Notes under the pieces: model-generated | Databases searched by the model: none | Told to the model about the DNA's origin: nothing | What the model saw: only the letters and a program-made list of their open reading frames with translations | Part shown: in pieces, positions 3,323-28,374 of the stretch | Layout of the letters: every line of letters begins with the position of its first letter | How positions within the stretch are numbered: position 1 is the first letter of the stretch | Program-made: the position numbers and the translations under genes | DNA from: a virus | Length of the DNA stretch: 28,374 bases | IMG/VR virus record: IMGVR_UViG_3300042465_008731 | Location: 1-28,374 of that record | Reading direction: 5' to 3' (one strand)

Positions 3323-3570
3323 TATTGTTTCCGAAGTGATGCTATTTCAATGAGCAAATTTTTTATATCTTGCATATCAGACTCTAATTTAGCAAGACGA
3401 ACTTTTGTTTCATTTTCATCTTTTTTAATATTTTCAACAAAGTTTTTTCTACTTTTATATTCTTTTAAAGCATTTATATTTTTATTTAGAAGTGCTTTTG
3501 AGTTTACATCTCTAAGTAAACTTTCATCTTCTGTTTGAACTAAAATATTAGAATCAATTAAAGAGGTCAT
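3322..3570 (-). CDS. Small coiled-coil protein of the fibre cassette
   Basis: The product is 82 residues, highly charged, and predicted helical over most of its length. Residues 27-80 (ALLNKNINALKEYKSRKNF, then RLAKLESDMQDIKNLLIEIA) show heptad spacing of L/I residues suggesting a coiled coil. There is no signal peptide or membrane segment. It overlaps the upstream 517-residue gene by four bases (ATGA) and the downstream fibre gene by one base (TAATG), so it is embedded in the late structural operon. I do not recognise a family. It could be a trimerisation element, a fibre connector or an assembly chaperone. Confidence 0.7.
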   Translation of the reverse strand: MTSLIDSNILVQTEDESLLRDVNSKALLNKNINALKEYKSRKNFVENIKKDENETKVRLAKLESDMQDIKNLLIEIASLRKQ

Positions 3571-5120
3571 GGTGCTAAGGCTATTGCTCTAAGGTCTCTA
3601 ATAATTGGAACATAATTTGTATCTGATGTTCTCATTACTATTTTAATTGAAAAAGTTTTAAAATTATTATATACATTATTATTTGTACCAAAATAAGAAG
3701 TGTCTAAAGTAGTAGGCACAAACAAATATTCCAAGTAGTCAGTTTCAACTTGTGATTTTGTATTATTTAGCAGAGTTTCATTACCTGGTTGAACACTTTT
3801 CATTCTAACATACGGTCTTTCATCAAAAAGAGTTTCATCTTCTTCTGCAACTATTTTGTAGTATACTTCAATTGTTGTTTCCGATGGTTGATAAGCTGTA
3901 AGATAAACTCGAATCATATTAGCATCAAAACCATCAGCCAATGTTACTTTACGAGTAATATAACGTGCAATTGCTGGCCCACCTTTAGAATTTGTTTCTG
4001 ATTCAATAGAAACTGTTGCAGTAGTATTGCCTGCCGGAACACTTGGAGCAGAAAGAGTAGCTGAAACATTTTCAGTATATCCGCTACCAGATGAAGTAAC
4101 TTCAATTTTTTCAATAACACCAGATATTGTATTTGCAACGCCTATTGCTACTGCTCCACTTCCTCTGCCAGCAGAAAAGGTTAATGTAGCGTTTGCTGTA
4201 TAACCTGTTCCACCATTTGTAATTGTGAAGTTTGAGCCTTCTAGACCACAATCATTAATAATATTTTTTACAGCAATCATGTGTAATCTAGCAGTATCAA
4301 TCATAGTTGATACCGTGTTATCTACTGTTGCTATTGTTGCTCTAAGCATAGTTGAACTATTTGAGTTGTTATAAACAACTTTTCTAGTATCTAAAACTAT
4401 ATCTTCTGCCGAAATAACTTCAGTAAAAGAACTTGCTAATGTGCCACTAGAGTTGTCAGTTAATCTATGAGAATATGTCGAAGATGTAGAATCAAATACA
4501 ATTTCTTGTGTAGATACTTTAATTAAATCGTAATCTATATTTGATGAAGGTAAAGAATTTTCAAATGTTACTTGAGATGTACCTACAGTAAAATCGCAAG
4601 CATTTAAACGAAACATTAAATCAATGTCTTGATAAGCGGTATAAGTTGATCCGTTTTGTGATTTAAAAAATGATCCAGTAAATACTTGTTTGTCTACTCT
4701 GCGATCTGAACCATCAATTCTAGTGCCGCCAACTTCTGCAACAAACAATTCATAGTTATCAGAATTAGTAAACATTACAATAGCATGCTCGCCAGGTACA
4801 AGAAAAATTGGAGCTGGAAATTTAAAACGAGTATAATGATTTGGATTTGTAATATCAGGAATATCAGATCCAACACCAGTTACCGTATTAATTTTTTCAG
4901 GTCTTAAATTAACTTGTCCTAAAGCTGCTCCACTATGAATCAATGCAGAATGTGGATAACCATTTACAACCGGTCTAAGTTGAATTGAAAATGGTTGATA
5001 TGTAGCTACATCTTTCTTTTTAAAAACTAAATCAACACTATGTACAAACATACCTTTTGGATATGTTGCTGCATCAACAAAAAATGTTTGTGCTACTGGA
5101 TCAATAAAAGCTGTTGCCAT
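3567..5120 (-). CDS. Virion structural protein, resembling the detached C-terminal region of DUF4815-type proteins
   Basis: The 517-residue protein starts MATAFIDPVAQTFFVDAATY, followed by YPKGMFVHSVDLVFKKKD, VVNGYPHSAL and FPAPIFLVPGEHAIVMFTNS. From memory of marine T4-like phages, the AQTFFVD...GvFltsvDlfF segment lies inside or directly after the large DUF4815 baseplate/fibre protein; here it is separate. Residues about 298-372 contain two copies of the glycine module GGTGYTANATLTF / GSGAVAIG and GSGYTENVSATL. The C-terminus is beta-rich (FKTFSIKIVMRTSDTN, VPIIRDLRAIALAP). The ATG follows the stop of the 1764-residue gene by one base. A good ribosome site (AGGAAT, with seven bases before the ATG) overlaps that stop, so it is a genuine separate start. 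A baseplate-periphery role is inferred. Confidence 0.8.
   Translation of the reverse strand: MATAFIDPVAQTFFVDAATYPKGMFVHSVDLVFKKKDVATYQPFSIQLRPVVNGYPHSALIHSGAALGQVNLRPEKINTVTGVGSDIPDITNPNHYTRFKFPAPIFLVPGEHAIVMFTNSDNYELFVAEVGGTRIDGSDRRVDKQVFTGSFFKSQNGSTYTAYQDIDLMFRLNACDFTVGTSQVTFENSLPSSNIDYDLIKVSTQEIVFDSTSSTYSHRLTDNSSGTLASSFTEVISAEDIVLDTRKVVYNNSNSSTMLRATIATVDNTVSTMIDTARLHMIAVKNIINDCGLEGSNFTITNGGTGYTANATLTFSAGRGSGAVAIGVANTISGVIEKIEVTSSGSGYTENVSATLSAPSVPAGNTTATVSIESETNSKGGPAIARYITRKVTLADGFDANMIRVYLTAYQPSETTIEVYYKIVAEEDETLFDERPYVRMKSVQPGNETLLNNTKSQVETDYLEYLFVPTTLDTSYFGTNNNVYNNFKTFSIKIVMRTSDTNYVPIIRDLRAIALAP
4005..4229 (-). repeat. Two glycine-rich GxGY...GxGAxA modules
   Basis: This stretch encodes two successive copies (about 35-40 residues each) of a module with GTGY or GSGY followed by beta strands and a GSGAVA-like or NTTATV-like strand. 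Similar modules occur in the gp6-, gp7-position and gp8-like proteins of the same operon. Confidence 0.65.
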
Positions 5121-5121
5121 G

Positions 5122-8100
5122 TTAATTCCTAATTAATTTACTTTTGAAGTATTCTTTAATTACTTTAAATGGAGAAGTTACAATATTAATTATAGAAACT
5201 AAAATGTAAAATGCTATCATAAAAGTAAAAATTGTAAATCCTTTTAATCTAGAATCTGGTTTACTTAGATTTGGATTTGTCAAACCAACAATCGCACAAA
5301 TAACTAAACCTAACCAGAACACAAGTTTACCTACTAAAGAACCTTCGTCACGAACTCTCTCAACATATGCCATTTCATCTGACCAAGGCCTTGCAATAAC
5401 CTCTGTCATATGTAGGGCTATGTTCCTTTGCATTTCATTATTGTCTTTCATATCCCAAAGATACAAACTTGGACCTCGTCCTTTTAACCACTCAACAATT
5501 GTTCTTGCCCAATATACATAACCACGATATATAATTGGATGATTACGCTGAAGGCGGCGACCAAATCTTTGATCAGCTTCATTTATATCTGGCGCAAAGA
5601 AACCTTGTTGAGCCATTTCAGAACAAATAATCTTACCTCCACCTCCGCCTCGACTTGGTGGAGGAGTTCTATCTCGTACTAAAGTTGTTCCTAAAATTTC
5701 TCTCTGAACAGCTGTCGTTGATCTATAATTTTCGTTTTTCTCATAGATAACTTGATTTTGAATTGTAGGCACACGAACGGAAACAGAAACTTCTTCTACA
5801 ACATTAAGAACACCTTGAGCATACCATTGTTCTTCAGCAAAAGAATTGGTTTGTGTTGGATCATTATTTGGATCGTTTGTTAATCTAATTAAACGAGCAC
5901 CTGTTCTACTTCTCCAACCATCATCATAAGTTGTTGGTCCATAATTTGGCAAATACCAGCGACCTGGCATATCACCGTGATCATCTGTTTGCGGTTTACC
6001 TACTGACCAACGAGATGTACTATCAGGCACCACATCCCAAGCAGGAGTAATAGATGCTATTTTTGTTGATCCATTATAGTTAGTAATCGTTCTTTCTTGG
6101 CCAAGACCAGTTCCTGCAACAATTCTAATTTGATAAAACTGTGTTGCTGTAATTGGATCTGTAAGATTTTTTGTTCCAGAATACGGCCAAGTTACAGTAG
6201 CATAAGTTGATTGCACATTCACATATGCATTATTTACTGGAGCACCTGAACCAAGAGTAATTGTAGTAGCATTAGCTGTAGTTGTATTACCGTTATTCCA
6301 GAACATAATGTCAATCTTAGCTGTTGCACCACTTACTGCACCAGTAACCGTGTCATTAGCTGCAAATGTACCACGAACATCACCTAAGAAAATCATTGGT
6401 TGTGTTTGTGACCAAGAACGTCCGGTTTGTTTTAAGAGTTTTGCTGTACCACCGCTCGATGATGTTACTGTTTCGTATATGCCATAAGAATCGTTAAAAT
6501 CGCCACTTACATTAAATAACCAAGCAATTGCTGGATATTCAATATATTTTGTTGCATCCAAATCACCTTGTTCAGCAAAAAGGTAATGATATTGATTTGG
6601 TCTTAATCCTTTTGCAACAGTAATAATCCATTGAGCACGAATATAGGGAACGACAGACAAATCAACCTGACGATTACCAATACTTCTTACAATTCTTTCT
6701 GGCACTAATACTTTTTTAGTACCGTACCTTTCTTTAGAATATTGTGTTACTGTTGTAGTGGACCTTACAGTATCTTGATAATCAAGATAACCTACTGATC
6801 TATTTTCAGCACCAGTTCCAACTGTGGTTGATTTTCCTGAAACATATTCATTCCATTCACCCCATTGATTTCCCCATCCTGCTGCTCGAGTATCATGCAA
6901 AGCTGCACCAATTTGTTCCCAAGCATCATTTTCACCTTCAAGATTAACTAAAACATCAGGTCTTTGTTCAGTATCAATCCAGAAATCTCCTGGAGGGAAA
7001 AAATCTAAAGTGCCTGCATAGTTTGAAAGAACAAATGGATTTACAGCTATAGCTTGTGTTGCTACATTTTGAGTAATAACTGTTTTAACTGTATAAGGAG
7101 AAACAATGATTGTTCCTGCTTCCACATTTGCAGTTGATTGAGATGAATTAGCAGTAAAACCAATACTATTTGTAACAAAAGGAGGTCTCAATTCTCCTGC
7201 TTCAAAATCCATAGCACATCTATAATCAAAGTTTTTAACATCACCAACTTGGTGACCTCTAAATGAATCTGTTAATATACCATTTTTAAATCTTTCTAAA
7301 CCATTTGAATCAAGAACAGTTAAGTCTTGAGCTGATTTTTCTAAAGTATTTAAAGCAGTATAGTATTCAAGATTTTCAATTCTTTTTTCTAATTTTCCAA
7401 TATCACGCATCGTATATCGTTTGTTTTCAATATAACGAAGTTGATTATCTGTTGGAAAAAAAGTATAAGGATTAATACGAAGTGTGTACAAACTCATCGC
7501 ATTATCAGGCTCAGCTGGAGTTTGAGGATATAAAGCTGAAATTCCTTTTATTACTCTAAATTTCTTATCTTCACCTAAAACAATCCTATCAATTCGAGAA
7601 ATATAATAGGTATAATCAGATTCTAATGATTCGCCAGCTCTTGGTAAAGAAATACCAGAAAGAGTAAAATTAGGAGATGCAGATGAAGCATTAGTACGAA
7701 TTGGTCTAAAGTCAATACAATCTCTTAACTTAAATATTTCACCTGTTATTGGACTTGTAAAGTTAGGGATTTTAGCATATCGAATATCTTCAGTAGCACC
7801 AAGAGAAGAATTATTATATGAATCAACACTAAAATAACCAGAACCAGTATGAGTAAAATAATTAATTAAAATGAGTATTTGACCTCTTGGCGGAGTTGCA
7901 CCAGGTCTTAAAGTTATAAAACCATGATCATAAAAACCATCGTCTTGGCCATCATTTAAAATGTAACGATCAGTAATGTCTTTAGCTGCATTTGTTAAAT
8001 CTGCAGCAACAACCGCTGATCCCGTACTACCAGAATCAACAACTTTAAACGAAGATTTATAAGTGTTTCCACCAGAAGTAATATTGAAATAACCGTATGT

Positions 8101-10416
8101 TTCTTCAAAAGTTCCTTCTAGTTTGTATATGTCAGAAATATAAAGATTATCTGATTGACCTGGGATTTTATTAGGCGAAGAAATAGCTACTTGCCCATCT
8201 GACAAATATACTGTTGTACTTCCTATTGTCGTTCCACTTGTTCCTATGCCTGTAGTATTTGCAGAAACTAAAGTTTTTGTTTTTGGTGAAGTTGTATTAA
8301 AATCAACTGATGCCATTACATCAGCTGTAACGATATTTGAAGAATTGAAATTAATCGTTACTGAATCACCAGAAACAGTCACCGATCTTCCTGAAGCAGC
8401 TGTAATTGGAACTCTATCTCGTAAATTGAATCCTGTTGATCCAGTATTAGCAGCAATAAAAAAGTGTTGCGCTGCCTGAGCATCAGATAAAACACCAGAA
8501 CCAACAAAAACATTATTTGCCGAACCTGTTGATAGAGTTAAAGAACCACCAGATACAATTTGATTTTTATAAACTATAGATCCTCTAAAATCTTGATCTG
8601 ACATTCCAAAACTAACAAATGATTGAGGAACACGAAATACTAACGATTTAAAATTAGTATCTGAAGTGAAAGTATTTCCAATTTGAGTTCGACTATCTTT
8701 GTTTGTTAAAGTTACATTAGCAGCTGGTAAATAAGGATCATTTGTGCCAGTTAAACGTCTATCTACAAAACTATCAACGTCTTTCACATTAAAATCAATT
8801 GAATAAATTGAGTTTGCTCTTGGACCACCAACAACAGCAAATGTATCTGCTATTCTAACTGTTTTATTTACATTATTATATTGTGTAATAAAATGTTTTA
8901 CGTTATCTGCACCATGGCCACCAGAAATACGAATATAGGCACCATAATAAGCATTAGCAACATTAGAAGCGGCTCCAGCTGTCGCTGAAAGAACAATGTG
9001 ATTTGAGTTACCAGAAGCACCTGAATTTGCGGTTATTGATGTAAAACGGGTATCATAAAAATATAAATTGTAAATATAACTAGACGGATCTAAAGTATTT
9101 GCAGCAGAAACATATTCAATTTCACGAATACGAGCTGTACCAATTTTTGTTGAGTTGTATGTTGTCGTATTACTATTATCAACTCTATCGTGTGTACCAT
9201 CAGCAGGAACAACATCTAGACGGCTTCCATAGGTATTACTTGAGCTTGGAACACAATGTAAATCAATAATACCCATCGTTTGAGTATCAAAAAACCCTTT
9301 TGTATTAGAAACCTGAATATAGTTTCCGTAGTTCGCTGCAATATCATAATTGTTTACTCCAGCTTTTTCTCTTGCTCGATCAAGAGTTAAATTTATTGGA
9401 GAAACAGTTTCAATTTCATAACCACGAACATAAGCTTTTCCTGTGCTTAATTTTGCCGTAAATTGTGAGGAGTTTGAAGTATTACCAACATCTGGAATGT
9501 GATCTTTTAAATAAATCGTAAAAGGTTTTACGGTATAATTACCAGATTCATCGTATGTTCTTCTCGCAAGGGTTCTTTCTAATTCAGCGTATATTGGATA
9601 ACTATTTCTTAATGTAACGATACCACTTTCAATACGAATAATTTCAATAAATTTAGTATCATCAACTGAATCTATTGATCTTGTAGTTAATCCTAAATTT
9701 ACTTTGTAACGAGTTGCTCCAGGCGCTTGATAATTTGAAGCATTTAAAGCTGGATCTAATAGTGAAGTATCGGTTCTTTCATCAACAATACTTTCTTCAT
9801 ATGCTAATCCAACTCTAAATGTTGGTGCATTATCATATTTGTTTAGAATAATTGTTTGAGCGGTTACTTTTACAAAAAAATCATCAATAAAATAAATGCC
9901 ATCATTAACGCTAGCAGTAGAAGTTTTGCCAGTTGAACTAGAAACTATTAATCTACCTTCATATTGATCATTATCTATTGTAAAAAAAGTTTCACCGTCT
10001 TGTAGTTGAAGAGCAGTTTTATATTCAACAAATATTGTAGGAGGGTCAATTGTCGTAGCTTCAGATACCGCAACAACTCTACCAATTGCGGAATTTGAAG
10101 CTAGAGAAGCTGCTGTACCAATGTTTCTATTTAAAAAAGTATTTACATCTATATCAGCACCACTCGTTGTAGTCGTTCTTAGTTTGTGATATACCGCAGA
10201 TGTTGAAATAGAAACTTCTCCACCAGTTACAACTGAACCATTTTTAAAAATGTGTTTGCCGAAACGTGAAACTTGTTTTTGGAGAATTGTTTGTAATTGA
10301 GTTAACTCACGAGCCTGAACTGCATAACCAGGACGAAAAAGCATACGAAGAAATTTTTTATCTTCATCGTAATCATCATAATATGGATTTACATTAAAAT
10401 TTTGTACTAATGCCAT
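5122..10416 (-). CDS. Giant DUF4815-type baseplate/tail-fibre structural protein with C-terminal membrane hairpin
   Basis: The 1764-residue protein begins with a clear DUF4815 signature: NVNPYYDDYDEDKKFLRMLF, RPGYAVQARELTQLQTILQ, FGKHIFKNGSVVTGG. This family is known as a large virion protein of T4-like marine phages, encoded near gp8 where T4 has gp9-gp12. The middle is beta-rich, with a GTFAANDTVTGAVSGATA module near residue 1350. After a GGGGG linker (about residue 1585) comes a different domain (KIICSEMAQQGFFAPDINEA, RGYVYWARTIVEWLKGRG), a type I have seen near the ends of phage tail proteins but cannot name. The last 70 residues contain two strongly hydrophobic segments (about 1697-1712 and 1727-1746) and a basic tail, which is unusual for a baseplate protein. 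It follows gp8 by nine bases. It probably forms the baseplate periphery and fibre socket. Confidence 0.85.
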   Translation of the reverse strand: MALVQNFNVNPYYDDYDEDKKFLRMLFRPGYAVQARELTQLQTILQKQVSRFGKHIFKNGSVVTGGEVSISTSAVYHKLRTTTTSGADIDVNTFLNRNIGTAASLASNSAIGRVVAVSEATTIDPPTIFVEYKTALQLQDGETFFTIDNDQYEGRLIVSSSTGKTSTASVNDGIYFIDDFFVKVTAQTIILNKYDNAPTFRVGLAYEESIVDERTDTSLLDPALNASNYQAPGATRYKVNLGLTTRSIDSVDDTKFIEIIRIESGIVTLRNSYPIYAELERTLARRTYDESGNYTVKPFTIYLKDHIPDVGNTSNSSQFTAKLSTGKAYVRGYEIETVSPINLTLDRAREKAGVNNYDIAANYGNYIQVSNTKGFFDTQTMGIIDLHCVPSSSNTYGSRLDVVPADGTHDRVDNSNTTTYNSTKIGTARIREIEYVSAANTLDPSSYIYNLYFYDTRFTSITANSGASGNSNHIVLSATAGAASNVANAYYGAYIRISGGHGADNVKHFITQYNNVNKTVRIADTFAVVGGPRANSIYSIDFNVKDVDSFVDRRLTGTNDPYLPAANVTLTNKDSRTQIGNTFTSDTNFKSLVFRVPQSFVSFGMSDQDFRGSIVYKNQIVSGGSLTLSTGSANNVFVGSGVLSDAQAAQHFFIAANTGSTGFNLRDRVPITAASGRSVTVSGDSVTINFNSSNIVTADVMASVDFNTTSPKTKTLVSANTTGIGTSGTTIGSTTVYLSDGQVAISSPNKIPGQSDNLYISDIYKLEGTFEETYGYFNITSGGNTYKSSFKVVDSGSTGSAVVAADLTNAAKDITDRYILNDGQDDGFYDHGFITLRPGATPPRGQILILINYFTHTGSGYFSVDSYNNSSLGATEDIRYAKIPNFTSPITGEIFKLRDCIDFRPIRTNASSASPNFTLSGISLPRAGESLESDYTYYISRIDRIVLGEDKKFRVIKGISALYPQTPAEPDNAMSLYTLRINPYTFFPTDNQLRYIENKRYTMRDIGKLEKRIENLEYYTALNTLEKSAQDLTVLDSNGLERFKNGILTDSFRGHQVGDVKNFDYRCAMDFEAGELRPPFVTNSIGFTANSSQSTANVEAGTIIVSPYTVKTVITQNVATQAIAVNPFVLSNYAGTLDFFPPGDFWIDTEQRPDVLVNLEGENDAWEQIGAALHDTRAAGWGNQWGEWNEYVSGKSTTVGTGAENRSVGYLDYQDTVRSTTTVTQYSKERYGTKKVLVPERIVRSIGNRQVDLSVVPYIRAQWIITVAKGLRPNQYHYLFAEQGDLDATKYIEYPAIAWLFNVSGDFNDSYGIYETVTSSSGGTAKLLKQTGRSWSQTQPMIFLGDVRGTFAANDTVTGAVSGATAKIDIMFWNNGNTTTANATTITLGSGAPVNNAYVNVQSTYATVTWPYSGTKNLTDPITATQFYQIRIVAGTGLGQERTITNYNGSTKIASITPAWDVVPDSTSRWSVGKPQTDDHGDMPGRWYLPNYGPTTYDDGWRSRTGARLIRLTNDPNNDPTQTNSFAEEQWYAQGVLNVVEEVSVSVRVPTIQNQVIYEKNENYRSTTAVQREILGTTLVRDRTPPPSRGGGGGKIICSEMAQQGFFAPDINEADQRFGRRLQRNHPIIYRGYVYWARTIVEWLKGRGPSLYLWDMKDNNEMQRNIALHMTEVIARPWSDEMAYVERVRDEGSLVGKLVFWLGLVICAIVGLTNPNLSKPDSRLKGFTIFTFMIAFYILVSIINIVTSPFKVIKEYFKSKLIRN

Positions 10417-23966: not shown

Positions 23967-24716
23967 ATGTCATTTTCACCAAATCTTTTTTTATCCAATA
24001 TTCGAGGCAAAGACGGCTTAGCAAAACCATGCCGATTTGAAGTTATTCTTCCAATACCGCCATATGTAAATCAATTTATTGGAAATTCTATTATTGAGAA
24101 AATATTAAATTTACCTAACTCAGTTTTCAATGATGTGTCTGACGCAATTGGTTCTGCTTTTGGCGCAGGCGGAGCGGCCGATGAATATTCTAAAACTTCA
24201 AATTCATCTATGTCAAGATACTTAGCACTTCAATGTGAAAACGCAGAATTACCAGGTAGAACTACAGCAACAGCAGATGTTAAAATATATGGACCAACAT
24301 TTAAAGTTCCATATCAAACACAATATGGCGATACTTCATTAACTTTTTTATGTACAAATGATTTTTTTGAAAGAAAACTTTTTGAAAGATGGATGGAGTG
24401 TATTCATCCTTCAGATACAAATAACGTGAGATATGCTAAAGGTGCAAAATCTCGTTATCTTACAAATATTAAAATTATTCAATATGATGAATTCATTAAA
24501 CAAATTTTTGCAGTTGAATTATTAGATGCTTTTCCAATAGGAATAGCTGCTCAACCTTTAAACTGGAGTGAAGAAGGTTTTCACCGCCTTTCAATTCAAT
24601 TTGCATATCAAAAATATAGGCCAATTTATACTGGCACATATGATTTGGCCGCAGCAGCCACAGCTTTATTTGGAACTGCTGCAGCGAGAGCACTACCACT
24701 TGGTCGTGCATTTTAA
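23967..24716 (+). CDS. 54: Tail-tube initiator gp54-like protein
   Basis: The 249-residue protein begins MSFSPNLFLSNIRGKDGLAK. It shows the tube-fold signature: RYLALQCENAELPGRTTATA, IYGPTFKVPYQTQYGDTSLT, FLCTNDFFERKLFERWMECI, SRYLTNIKIIQYDEFIKQIF and AAQPLNWSEEGFHRLSIQFA. gp54 and the tail-tube protein gp19 share this fold. The length (T4 gp54 has 320, gp19 has 163) and baseplate-gene context favour the initiator gp54, with a gp19 paralogue as the alternative. It stacks on gp48 and starts polymerisation of the tube around the tape measure. Its ATG directly follows the stop of the preceding gene. Confidence 0.82.
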   Translation: MSFSPNLFLSNIRGKDGLAKPCRFEVILPIPPYVNQFIGNSIIEKILNLPNSVFNDVSDAIGSAFGAGGAADEYSKTSNSSMSRYLALQCENAELPGRTTATADVKIYGPTFKVPYQTQYGDTSLTFLCTNDFFERKLFERWMECIHPSDTNNVRYAKGAKSRYLTNIKIIQYDEFIKQIFAVELLDAFPIGIAAQPLNWSEEGFHRLSIQFAYQKYRPIYTGTYDLAAAATALFGTAAARALPLGRAF

Positions 24717-24735: not shown

Positions 24736-25452
24736 ATGTTACCAAAGTTAGATGTTCCAATTTATTCTGTTAATCTTATATCAACAGGAAAGCCAGTTCG
24801 TTTTAGACCATTTTTGGTGAAAGAACAAAAGATGTTTCTAATGGCATCTGAGTCTGAAGATTCAAACGAAATGGTAAATATTATTCGTCAAGTATTAAAG
24901 AATTGTGTAATTGACGAAATTGATATTGATAGTTTGCCTACTTTTGATTTAGAATATTTGTTTTTAAATCTCAGAGCTAGGTCCGTTGAAGAAGTTGTAG
25001 ATCTTCGTTACAAATGTAACAATGTAATAGATGAAAAAAAGTGTTCAGGTGTTGTTGAATTTAAATTAAATTTACTACAAATTGAACCAACAAAAAACGA
25101 AAAACATAAAGATAAAATTCAAATTACAGAAAATTTAGGAATTTGTTTTAAATACCCAACATTTGATATGCTTCAAAAATATGAAAAGCTAAGTGAGAAT
25201 GAAATTATGATTCGTATCTTGGTTGATTGTATCGATTATATTTACGATAAAGATCAAATATATTATTCTAAAGATTCGAGTAGAGAAGAACTAGAAGAAT
25301 TCATTGATAATCTACAACAAAAAGATTTAGAGAAGTTTAAAGAATTCTTTGATACAATGCCTGAAATTAAAAAAGATGTTCAATTTAAATGTCCAAAATG
25401 TTCTTATGAAGAAGATATTACTATAAAGGGCATTCAAAATTTTTTCGTCTAA
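24736..25452 (+). CDS. 26: Baseplate hub assembly protein gp26-like (zero-frame product)
   Basis: The 238-residue protein begins MLPKLDVPIYSVNLISTGKP. It carries the gp26 family pattern: VRFRPFLVKEQKMFLMASES, MVNIIRQVLKNCVID, LPTFDLEYLFLNLRARSVEE. Four cysteines (C94, C103, C219, C222, the last two as KCPKC) could bind zinc. T4 gp26 (208 residues) is needed for hub assembly and is not clearly a mature virion part, which fits a chaperone role. A GCGAGG ribosome site lies seven bases before the ATG. The final codons AAT TTT TTC GTC TAA contain two overlapping -1 slippery heptamers, and a -1 frame of 65 residues continues past the stop. I expect two products, gp26 and a 302-residue fusion. Confidence 0.88.
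   Translation: MLPKLDVPIYSVNLISTGKPVRFRPFLVKEQKMFLMASESEDSNEMVNIIRQVLKNCVIDEIDIDSLPTFDLEYLFLNLRARSVEEVVDLRYKCNNVIDEKKCSGVVEFKLNLLQIEPTKNEKHKDKIQITENLGICFKYPTFDMLQKYEKLSENEIMIRILVDCIDYIYDKDQIYYSKDSSREELEEFIDNLQQKDLEKFKEFFDTMPEIKKDVQFKCPKCSYEEDITIKGIQNFFV
25437..25446 (+). promoter_or_regulatory. Putative -1 ribosomal frameshift site (overlapping slippery heptamers)
   Basis: The bases AAATTTTTTC contain A-AAT-TTT (25437-25443) and T-TTT-TTC (25440-25446), both in the X-XXY-YYZ register of the gp26 frame, two codons before its stop. Slippage would continue as CGT CTA ATA and so on to the TAA at 25641-25643. No obvious downstream hairpin was found by eye. Confidence 0.65.
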
Positions 25453-25643
25453 TATTTCGTTATGATACTCTGAAGAATTACTATGAAACAAACTTTGCTA
25501 TGATGCAACATCACAAGTATAGTTTGTCTGAATTGGAAAATATGCTACCTTGGGAAAGAAACATTTATGTGTCTTTGTTGGTGAAGTATTTGCAAGAAGA
25601 AAAAGAACGTATAGAACTACAGAAAGCAAGTAAGAAACGATAA
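25446..25643 (+). CDS. Minus-one-frame extension of gp26 (tail-assembly chaperone T-like; gp51 position)
   Basis: In the -1 frame relative to gp26, reading after the slippery site gives RLIFRYDTLKNYYETNFAMM, then QHHKYSLSELENMLPWERNI and YVSLLVKYLQEEKERIELQK, 65 residues in all, ending in a TAATG overlap with the next gene. The first independent start is the ATG at 25500 (MMQHHKYS, 47 residues), which has no ribosome site nearby; the region before it reads as protein-like (FRYDTLKNYYETNFA), so expression by frameshift is more convincing. The SLSELENMLPWER motif resembles the short extensions of phage tail-assembly chaperones. In T4, gene 51 (hub assembly) follows gene 26, so the position matches, but direct homology to gp51 is not established. 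Confidence 0.75.
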   Translation, partial: RLIFRYDTLKNYYETNFAMMQHHKYSLSELENMLPWERNIYVSLLVKYLQEEKERIELQKASKKR

Positions 25644-27559
25644 TGGCATCAATAAGAAATTTAAATAGATCAGGATTCCTTGGCGGCCAAGAGGTTGGTT
25701 CTGGATTTGGTTCGGGTTTAAAATCTAGGCTTGCAAAAGGACAAACAATTGGTAGTTCTTTTGGTGGCGGTTTTTCTGATATGATGCAAACACTTGCGCC
25801 AGAAAATATCAAAAAACGAACACTTGAAAAAGCATTTGGTGGTCCAGGCCTTGTTTCTGCATATGCTCGTGGAAAATTAAAACAAAAATATGGAACATCT
25901 CCAACAAAAGCTTCAACAACAGATCCTTCAGGTGAAACTTCTCAGGTTAGTGATTCTTCGTATTTAAAAGTTATTGCTAAAGCATCTATGTCTTTACCTG
26001 GTATGGCTAGAGATATGAATGTTTTACGGCAAAATGTTCAAAAACTTGTAAAACTTAAAGCTGGTCCTCAAAAGAAAGGAAGCAAAGCTTATGCTTCTAG
26101 CGCAGATGCTTATTTTCTTAAAGAAGATGAAAGAGAAAGAGCTCTAGAAGCACAAAGACAAAAAACACCAGGTAGTAAATCAATCACGCCTACGCCAGAA
26201 AAGAAAGAAGAAAGTGGCAATATACTAGACTCAATATCAAAAACATTTAGTAGTGGATTTTTGAGTGCTATAAAATCTTTGTTTAGTGCAAAACTGCTTG
26301 GTGCAATACTGAAAAAAGTATTTTTACCAATTGCAATAATTGGAACTTTGTTTAGTGGTATTACAGATGGTTTTAAGCGTTATAAAGAAACTGGAAGTTT
26401 TACTGATGCGATTGTAGCTGGTCTTGGTGGAATGTTAGAATTTGTTTCTTTTGGCCTATTTGGTGAAGATACTTTAAAATCTCTATTTTCATCCATCAGT
26501 AACTTCTTTCAACCAATTACAGATACAATATCGAGCATTTTTACAGGCATTAAAAACTTCGTAATAGGTTTATTTGGTGGCAAAGTTGATGTAAAAGACG
26601 ATGCGCCGGCAAAAGCAGATAGTGTAAAACCTACAATGCCTGATCCAAAACAATTTGCTTTAACTTCTGCAAAAGCTTCAGGTGCGTCAGATCAAAAAGC
26701 ATCAGACATTGGTGATATGTTTGGTGCTGTTGGTAAAGGTGATGCTCAAAGTCTATTTGACAAAGCACAAGCTTTCGCTAAAAAATATCCTGAGCCGGCA
26801 CCAGCTGCAACAGCACCTACTCCTATGGCAAGCGAAGGTGTGCCAATGGATCAGGCTCAAAGAAATTACGAATTAAATAAAAAATTAACCGGTGAAGCTT
26901 CAAAAGCACTTGGTGTTCCCTTACAAGCACCAGCTCCGCCAACACCAGCAACACCACCAGCTCCAGTTGCTACTGCACCAACACCTGCACCCGAAATGTC
27001 TGATTCTGATAAGGTTAAACAATTAGAAGGTTACATTGAAGGCAATAAAAAACGATTTGCTAGAAGGGAAGCTGATGCAGCAAGACATATTGCTTCATTT
27101 AAAAAGCGATATGAAAATGATCCTAGTCGTGTAAAAGAATTGGAAGACGATTATAAACAAACACTTGATGTTGAACGCAAAGAAATGGAAGAAGCAAATG
27201 CTGGTTTCCAAAGACAAATTGATGCTCTTAAAAAATCATCTGGAGGTAAAGTAACCGCAGGTGCTTCTTCAACACCAGCAGTTGAAGCAGGAGGTTCTAG
27301 TGCTCCAGCAATATCTGCTAGTGGCGGTGGTGCCGGCGGAGCTTCTGTTGCTTCTGCTCCTACTGCACCATCGGGTTCTGATATATCTCAAACTTCTTCT
27401 TCTGTGGCCGAAGGACAAAGAATGGAATCGGCTGCAGATCAAGGTTCAGTTGTAAATGCTCCAACAACAAACAATCAATCTGCATCTTCTGGCAAAACAA
27501 AACCTCCAACAGCAGATGTGTATAACGCAGATTTTGCTAAAATGTTAGCGACAACATAA
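25643..27559 (+). CDS. Large hydrophobic/coiled-coil virion protein, tape-measure or hub candidate
   Basis: The product has 638 residues. Residues 1-80 are glycine-rich. Residues 105-150 hold SLPGMARDMNVLRQNVQKLV, a motif shared with the next gene. Residues 200-315 contain membrane-like or amphipathic helices (LGAILKKVFLPIAIIGTLFS, ISSIFTGIKNFVIGLFGG). Residues 375-450 are Ala/Pro-rich low complexity (APAPPTPATPPAPVATAPTP). Residues 453-534 are a charged coiled coil (VKQLEGYIEGNKKRFARREA, RVKELEDDYKQTLDVERKEM). The C-terminus is Ser/Gly/Ala-rich, ending NAPTTNNQSASSGKTKPPT and a short tail. Position just after gp26 and its frameshift extension is where lambda and P2 encode the tape-measure protein and T4 encodes 27/28/29. 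A tape-measure or hub role fits but is not proven. It overlaps both neighbours as TAATG. Confidence 0.78.
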   Translation: MASIRNLNRSGFLGGQEVGSGFGSGLKSRLAKGQTIGSSFGGGFSDMMQTLAPENIKKRTLEKAFGGPGLVSAYARGKLKQKYGTSPTKASTTDPSGETSQVSDSSYLKVIAKASMSLPGMARDMNVLRQNVQKLVKLKAGPQKKGSKAYASSADAYFLKEDERERALEAQRQKTPGSKSITPTPEKKEESGNILDSISKTFSSGFLSAIKSLFSAKLLGAILKKVFLPIAIIGTLFSGITDGFKRYKETGSFTDAIVAGLGGMLEFVSFGLFGEDTLKSLFSSISNFFQPITDTISSIFTGIKNFVIGLFGGKVDVKDDAPAKADSVKPTMPDPKQFALTSAKASGASDQKASDIGDMFGAVGKGDAQSLFDKAQAFAKKYPEPAPAATAPTPMASEGVPMDQAQRNYELNKKLTGEASKALGVPLQAPAPPTPATPPAPVATAPTPAPEMSDSDKVKQLEGYIEGNKKRFARREADAARHIASFKKRYENDPSRVKELEDDYKQTLDVERKEMEEANAGFQRQIDALKKSSGGKVTAGASSTPAVEAGGSSAPAISASGGGAGGASVASAPTAPSGSDISQTSSSVAEGQRMESAADQGSVVNAPTTNNQSASSGKTKPPTADVYNADFAKMLATT

Positions 27560-28374
27560 TGGCCTCAATTTCAGACATTTTAGGATCAGTTATCAAGACT
27601 AAAGTTCTTGGTTCTAAAAATCCATCTAAAGTAAGTTCAGAAAAAAATACATCAGCGCTTACAAAAGTAATTGGCAAAAACTTTATGTCTTTGCCTAGTT
27701 TTGCTCGTGATTTAAATGTTGCTAGACAAAACATCCAAAAATTAGTAAAACTAGAAGGTGGTACGCCCGCTCGTGGCGCTGATGCTAAGTTTTTAAAATC
27801 ATCATTAGCTGATGAAAAGTTAGATATTGAAGTTGGAAAAATAGAAAGAAGACCTGCTCCAGAAAAATCTAAAAAAGGAATGAATGTTTTAGGAAATTTG
27901 AAGAAAACTTTTAGTGCAGGTAATATTCTAAAATCACTTACAAAATATTTAGCTGTTGGTGCTATAGTTACTGCTATATTTGTTGCCTTCAAAGATAGTT
28001 TTGCTGAATGGGCATCTGGTCTTTGGGAAACAATAAAAGAAGCACTTGATGAATTTGTTGGAGGAATTAAAGATTGGTTTATGGAAAGTGTTCAACCAAT
28101 CATTGATAAAGTCCAAGAAATGATTCAACCACTCATAGATGCTATCTCTGGCTTTATAACAAAACTTGGAGATTGGTTTAAAGAAAAAATAGAATGGTTC
28201 GCAGCTGAGTTTCCACAAACATTTGCTTTCATTAAAAAAGTAATTGACAAAGTTATGAGTCTTATTGATAGCTTAGTTGAAAAACTTAAAAATTGGGCAG
28301 AAAAATTATTAAGTAATAAAGCAACAGCTTGGATGGTTCCTGATTTTGTAAAAGATATGTTGAAGATTGGCCAG
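27559..28374 (+). CDS. Paralogue of the preceding protein, tape-measure/hub candidate (3' end outside window)
   Basis: The frame is open from the ATG at 27559, overlapping the upstream stop as TAATG, to the window end (272 codons seen). The N-terminus MASISDILGSVIKTKVLGSK is short. Residues 36-63 (VIGKNFMSLPSFARDLNVAR, then QNIQKLVKL) match the preceding protein (VIAKASMSLPGMARDMNVLR) closely, followed in both by a polar linker with KFLKSS or YFLKED. A hydrophobic segment SLTKYLAVGAIVTAIFVAFK lies near residue 127. Beyond it are amphipathic helices rich in W, I and K (LWETIKEALDEFVGGIKDWF, TKLGDWFKEKIEWFAAEFPQ), as in tape-measure proteins. I infer tandem gene duplication followed by divergence. 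The end is not visible. Confidence 0.8.
   Translation, partial: MASISDILGSVIKTKVLGSKNPSKVSSEKNTSALTKVIGKNFMSLPSFARDLNVARQNIQKLVKLEGGTPARGADAKFLKSSLADEKLDIEVGKIERRPAPEKSKKGMNVLGNLKKTFSAGNILKSLTKYLAVGAIVTAIFVAFKDSFAEWASGLWETIKEALDEFVGGIKDWFMESVQPIIDKVQEMIQPLIDAISGFITKLGDWFKEKIEWFAAEFPQTFAFIKKVIDKVMSLIDSLVEKLKNWAEKLLSNKATAWMVPDFVKDMLKIGQ

Follow-up and report, generated by a model that had tools for sequence, protein, structure and literature searches.

A predicted -1 frameshift at the end of gp26 as the likely source of short and long tail assembly chaperones in a T4-like phage

Programmed frameshifting in tail assembly chaperone genes is established in phage lambda, where G, the short form, and GT, a minor form made by -1 frameshifting, are encoded between the tail tube and tape measure genes (gene order V-G-T-H), and where the ribosome slips on G_GGA_AAG. 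In the lambda-type mechanism the tape measure is the target of the short form, and the tube protein is recruited by the long form (PMC5009743). Stimulators of the SD type are known for ribosomal -1 frameshifting and act 9-14 nt upstream: in E. coli dnaX and in IS elements, a heptamer is combined with an upstream SD-like stimulator (PMC5009743). A downstream stem-loop or pseudoknot is often added in those systems. The motif U_UU.U_UU.C belongs to the efficient frameshift motifs in E. coli (PMC4066793). Closer to the locus considered here, Vladimirov, Gautam and Davidson (2022; Virology 566:9-15) reportedly identified the tail assembly chaperones of T4-like phages, with short and long forms as predicted for the present phage. 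Papers that cite this work add that TAC-N genes of T4-like phages are known to carry poly-T -1 frameshift signals (PMC12846349) and that in some T4-like phages a short gene is accompanied by a long, fused one (PMC10885494). The TAC of phage Adele (Pakpunavirus / Vandenendeviridae) also has a conserved -1 site, of the GTTTTT type, ending TAC-N and followed by an open -1 frame (PMC12846349); Adele belongs to a different phage family, and its TAC is likened to gp26 by the frameshift arrangement alone. In T4 itself, gp26 and gp51 have been called hub proteins or hub assembly chaperones, not tape-measure chaperones, and the particle is reported not to contain gp51 (PMC3004832). The gp51 of cyanophages was observed by Sullivan et al. 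(2010; PMC3037559) to be missing its first ~200 residues.

The locus described here lies in a stretch of 28,374 nt from a marine T4-like phage (positions 1 to 28,374 of IMG/VR virus record IMGVR_UViG_3300042465_008731), which we call the window. Its relevant features are as follows.

23967 to 24716, plus strand: tail tube protein gene, in the position of lambda V, upstream of gp26 (phrog_45 tail tube, E 6.4e-31)
24736 to 25452, plus strand: gp26-like short tail assembly chaperone (TAC-N), zero frame, 238 aa (PF12322 T4_baseplate, E 1.3e-61; phrog_150, E 2.5e-67)
25425 to 25430, plus strand: SD-like element AAAGGG, 9 nt before the heptamer, a putative 5' frameshift stimulator (conserved spacing, duplex energy)
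25437 to 25443, plus strand: overlapping A_AAT_TTT heptamer, present here and unconserved
25440 to 25446, plus strand: slippery heptamer T_TTT_TTC, the predicted operative -1 slip site
25446 to 25643, plus strand: -1 extension (TAC-C), 65 codons and TAA, equivalent of the C-terminal domain of T4 gp51 (phrog_634, hhalign, pN/pS)
25450 to 25452, plus strand: zero-frame stop TAA, one codon past the heptamer
25500 to 25502, plus strand: first ATG in the -1 frame, which would give 47 aa; no ribosome-binding site on inspection of the sequence
25643 to 27559, plus strand: 638-aa gene without assigned function, its start overlapping the -1 frame stop (TAATG) (ORF list, family searches)
27559 to 28374, plus strand: tape-measure-like gene, partial, ending at the contig edge (phrog_1272, E 2.7e-8; phrog_58, E 7.1e-8; tape measure)

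The order tail tube, gp26/gp51, tape-measure-like gene matches lambda apart from the extra 638-aa gene, and bears out the G/GT-like arrangement proposed in the initial annotation of this DNA. The 238-aa gp26-like protein contains two CxxC-type motifs, and its gene ends CAA (25435) AAT TTT TTC GTC TAA. From 25410 onwards the -1 frame has no stop until the TAA at 25641-25643, a codon that overlaps the ATG of the following gene; these coordinates were checked and are correct, as is the predicted length of the fusion made by a slip on T_TTT_TTC (237 + 65 = 302 residues). The extension is homologous to the gp51 C-terminus: it matches phrog_634 ("baseplate hub assembly catalyst", gp51) at E 9.1e-27, and its profile aligns to residues 199-245 of T4-type gp51 (hhalign E 6.5e-8). 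It is also matched by the C-terminal part (234-280) of phrog_150, which indicates that some members of that family carry both parts in one frame.

Other features of the window deserve mention in their own right. The 638-aa gene is rich in Ala, Pro and Ser, found no family in domain and phrog profile searches, and has an N-terminal part that by eye resembles that of the tape-measure-like gene that follows. On the minus strand, a phrog_358 protein (function not known) is split over two ORFs one base apart, 5122-10416 (profile 3-1413) and 3567-5120 (profile from 1422); the latter has its own ribosome-site-like sequence (aggaattaacATG), so that the split looks like gene fission. Also on the minus strand, 636-1925 encodes a protein of 429 aa that has RCC1-type repeats (phrog_4219, E 6e-25), and the adjoining ORF 1926-2507 resembles tail-fibre C-termini.

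A slippery heptamer is by itself weak evidence in DNA of this composition, because canonical X_XXY_YYZ heptamers are frequent in it: the AT-rich window (33% GC) has 100 in 8,733 codons, although none of the 22 genes other than gp26 has such a heptamer in its last 8 codons. Whether the heptamer is there by chance alone is decided by comparison across relatives, which rejects it. Loci were drawn from a search of IMG/VR with gp26 alone (64 loci), from a search of IMG/VR with the extension profile (more than 600 stretches, 80 kept) and from eight annotated phages. The extension could be placed in 151 loci, of which 91 were left once near-duplicates had been removed. Because the gp26 search made no use of the extension, its result involves no circularity; the extension-profile search selected for the conserved extension motif and for neither the heptamer nor the frame relation. 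In 150 of the 151 loci, and in all 91 non-redundant ones, the extension is read in the -1 frame and is preceded by a T_TTT_TTN that sits in the right register where the two frames overlap; these loci span cyanophages, a methylophage, Vibrio phages and rhizobial phages. The expectation that both the heptamer and the open -1 frame would be kept in relatives is therefore upheld. In the one locus without a slip site (L056), the C-terminus of gp26 is missing and the extension follows on in the gp26 frame, which is probably an assembly error and possibly a natural deletion.

The slip site keeps its register, its position and its wobble bases in 91/91 non-redundant loci. The heptamer reads TTTTTTC in 76 of these, TTTTTTT in 8, TTTTTTA in 6 and TTTTTTG in 1, and among 150 loci the run is six T then C in 134. 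In every one of the 91, T is the last base of the codon that precedes it, where the share of T for those amino acids over the whole gene is 0.60; the slip site's first Phe codon is always TTT, against 0.71 over the gene. The zero-frame stop follows 0 to 8 codons past the heptamer, usually one (the spacing seen here is found in 78/91); in three loci (L124, L129 and L144) it comes about 8 codons past the heptamer instead of one, giving a longer short form. The initial annotation had described two overlapping heptamers in register. Both are present in this genome, but only T_TTT_TTN belongs to the conserved signal: in most relatives the preceding codon is AGT, GAT, TCT or GCT (AGT in 39/91 non-redundant loci), and A_AAT_TTT was rejected as a slip site.

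The conserved signal appears to extend upstream. Upstream of the slip site, 97% of the non-redundant loci match TAAGGAGGTGA over 4 nt or more, as do 29% of windows taken from other parts of these genes; the matches near the slip site mostly end 8-10 nt before the heptamer. Wobble positions point the same way: a G that strengthens the SD match is used at 0.42 (0.23 expected) at one codon and at 0.43 (0.14 expected) at the preceding codon. Over the 91 loci the predicted duplex exceeds that of synonymous shuffles in strength by 1.3 kcal/mol (z -9.4), and the excess persists when the loci are thinned to 42, 22 and 10 (z -6.1, -5.2 and -2.8). The same shuffle comparison gave no comparable signal farther upstream in the gene. 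The duplex in this window, at -4.4, is weaker than the average of -6.17. Downstream RNA structure was considered as a stimulator and rejected, none being detected over the 91 loci (mean z -0.29); here the locus differs from dnaX and the IS elements, which often have one. From its conservation, spacing and computed pairing, the SD-like element is a putative frameshift stimulator. No description of it was found in the literature searched, which lay outside the full text of Vladimirov et al. (2022), where it may be described.

Comparison with T4 clarifies what the two products would be. T4 gp26 and gp51 both align to the full length of PF12322 (8.8e-64 and 3.9e-52); they match each other at 2e-6, and comparison of the gp26 and gp51 profiles gives E 4.5e-11. 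T4 gp51, at 249 residues, consists of a gp26-like domain with the same extension at its C-terminus, in one frame. T4 gp26 thus corresponds to the short form and T4 gp51, with both parts, to the long form, which supports the earlier suggestion that gp26/gp51 are the T4-branch equivalent of the lambda-type chaperones. Judged by these matches, T4 uses two genes for what this phage is predicted to make from one. The two arrangements share the PF12322 domain in both products and the extension in gp51; they differ in that T4 has two genes, with gene 26 on the opposite strand, has gp51 fused in frame, and has no slippery run (the T run is absent from the T4-type sequences inspected). A PF12322 tree separates three groups (frameshift-type gp26, T4-type gp26 and T4-type gp51); as it is unrooted, it does not give the direction of the T4 duplication, that is, which came first. 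The cyanophage gp51 noted by Sullivan et al. would seem truncated because the missing part is gp26, joined to it by frameshifting. Several GenBank records show gp51 as a short separate ORF or have no gp51 gene. In the public records of S-WAM1, ACG-2014e and Syn30 (L065, L066 and L068) the extension is unannotated, and in other cyanophage records it is a separate short ORF.

How the extension is expressed could be explained in other ways, and the standalone ORFs of GenBank amount to one of them: a 47-aa gp51 made separately from the ATG at 25500, by reinitiation after the gp26 stop and without any fusion. An ATG does occur within 63 nt in 85/91 non-redundant loci, but not one of the 85 has an SD 4-mer, and the ATG at 25500, the sole internal start in the -1 frame, has no ribosome site, as had been noted from the start. 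The residues encoded before the ATG are also conserved. pN/pS before the first usual ATG position is 0.16 (48 independent pairs), the same as farther downstream, which confirms purifying selection on the -1 frame before any ATG; between the zero-frame stop and that position, stops occur in 0/125 loci in the -1 frame, compared with 107/125 in the zero frame and 119/125 in the +1 frame. Upstream of the slip site the -1 frame extends just 0-69 nt in the non-redundant loci. A separate gp51 would also leave the T run kept at synonymous sites, the in-frame fusion of the equivalent domain in T4 gp51 and the records with no gp51 gene at all to be explained. A separate start was rejected given the lack of ribosome sites at the candidate ATGs, and we consider this reading very unlikely; the missing SD sequences together with the selection upstream of the ATG make frameshifting the best-supported route. 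That the slip might be made by RNA polymerase, giving mixed mRNAs, would suit a homopolymer run conserved at the junction. The run is usually just six T then C, however, in the register expected for tandem tRNA slippage, polymerase would generally need longer runs, and the SD-like element stands at a spacing known for ribosomal stimulators; transcriptional slippage has, in our estimate, only a slim chance of being right. A sequencing error, pseudogene or chance overlap might be suspected where slippery heptamers are so common, but the identical break recurs in dozens of independent assemblies and isolate genomes and the -1 frame is under purifying selection. Conservation across loci and this selection refute such an origin, to which we give next to no credence.

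A further alternative accepts the frameshift and concerns what it is for: gp26 and its extension could be parts of the baseplate hub, with frameshifting setting the ratio of two hub subunits. In the T4 literature a part in assembling the hub is ascribed to gp26 and gp51, and some genetic studies place gp26 in the hub (PMC3004832). The fold evidence points both ways. An AlphaFold (AF2) model of gp26 (pLDDT 87) has the HK97 tail assembly chaperone 2ob9 as its top PDB match, in line with a chaperone; the match is weak, at E 0.52 and probability 0.69, and a fold search with a T4-type gp51 model (pLDDT 84) gave no chaperone match, in line with the hub alternative. Sequence profiles found no relevant match among solved structures for gp26 or gp51. 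The likeness to lambda G is one of architecture and gene order. It is these G/GT features that speak against hub parts: the gene lies between the tail tube gene and the tape-measure-like gene, with one unassigned gene intervening; a short form and a C-terminally extended long form are encoded, at the level of sequence, by one gene; and a predicted frameshift gives rise to the long form. The reported absence of gp51 from the T4 particle (PMC3004832) and the reported identification of these proteins as TACs (Vladimirov et al., 2022) count against it too, and a hub role seems unlikely.

A -1 frameshift at the end of gp26 that yields short and long tail assembly chaperones is thus very probably the right explanation. 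The comparisons show that the signal, the frame and selection on the coding sequence are conserved and that the domains are equivalent to those of T4 gp26 and gp51; from this we infer the slipping itself, its efficiency, the action of the stimulator and the chaperone mechanism. Most ribosomes would terminate at 25450-25452 and give the 238-aa short form (gp26, TAC-N). A minority would slip back one base on T_TTT_TTC, probably aided by the SD-like element 9 nt upstream, and would make a long form of 302 aa (TAC-NC), in which the 65 added residues form the domain known as gp51. The rest of the scheme is carried over from lambda G/GT by analogy: the short form may coat the tape measure protein, the extension of the long form may recruit tail tube subunits, and both forms may leave before the tail is completed.

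A frameshifted chaperone is not a new idea, since one was published for T4-like phages in 2022. The observation made here is real and was read correctly; the arrangement is already known in T4-like phages, to which this phage adds a new genome. The abstract of the 2022 paper reportedly describes frameshifting in several groups of T4-like phages and gives the T4 genes as 26 and 51. For the clade, we lean towards a signal of two parts, both 5', consisting of T_TTT_TTN and an SD-like stimulator 8-10 nt upstream with no downstream structure, and maintained by selection at synonymous positions in marine, rhizobial and Vibrio phages, with the T4 branch using two duplicated genes instead. The SD-like element is a concrete and easily testable candidate stimulator. 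For annotation, it follows from the predicted fusion that many T4-like genomes have gp51 wrongly annotated or lack an annotation for it. Within one phage lineage, one function would have two encodings: a frameshift or duplicated genes.
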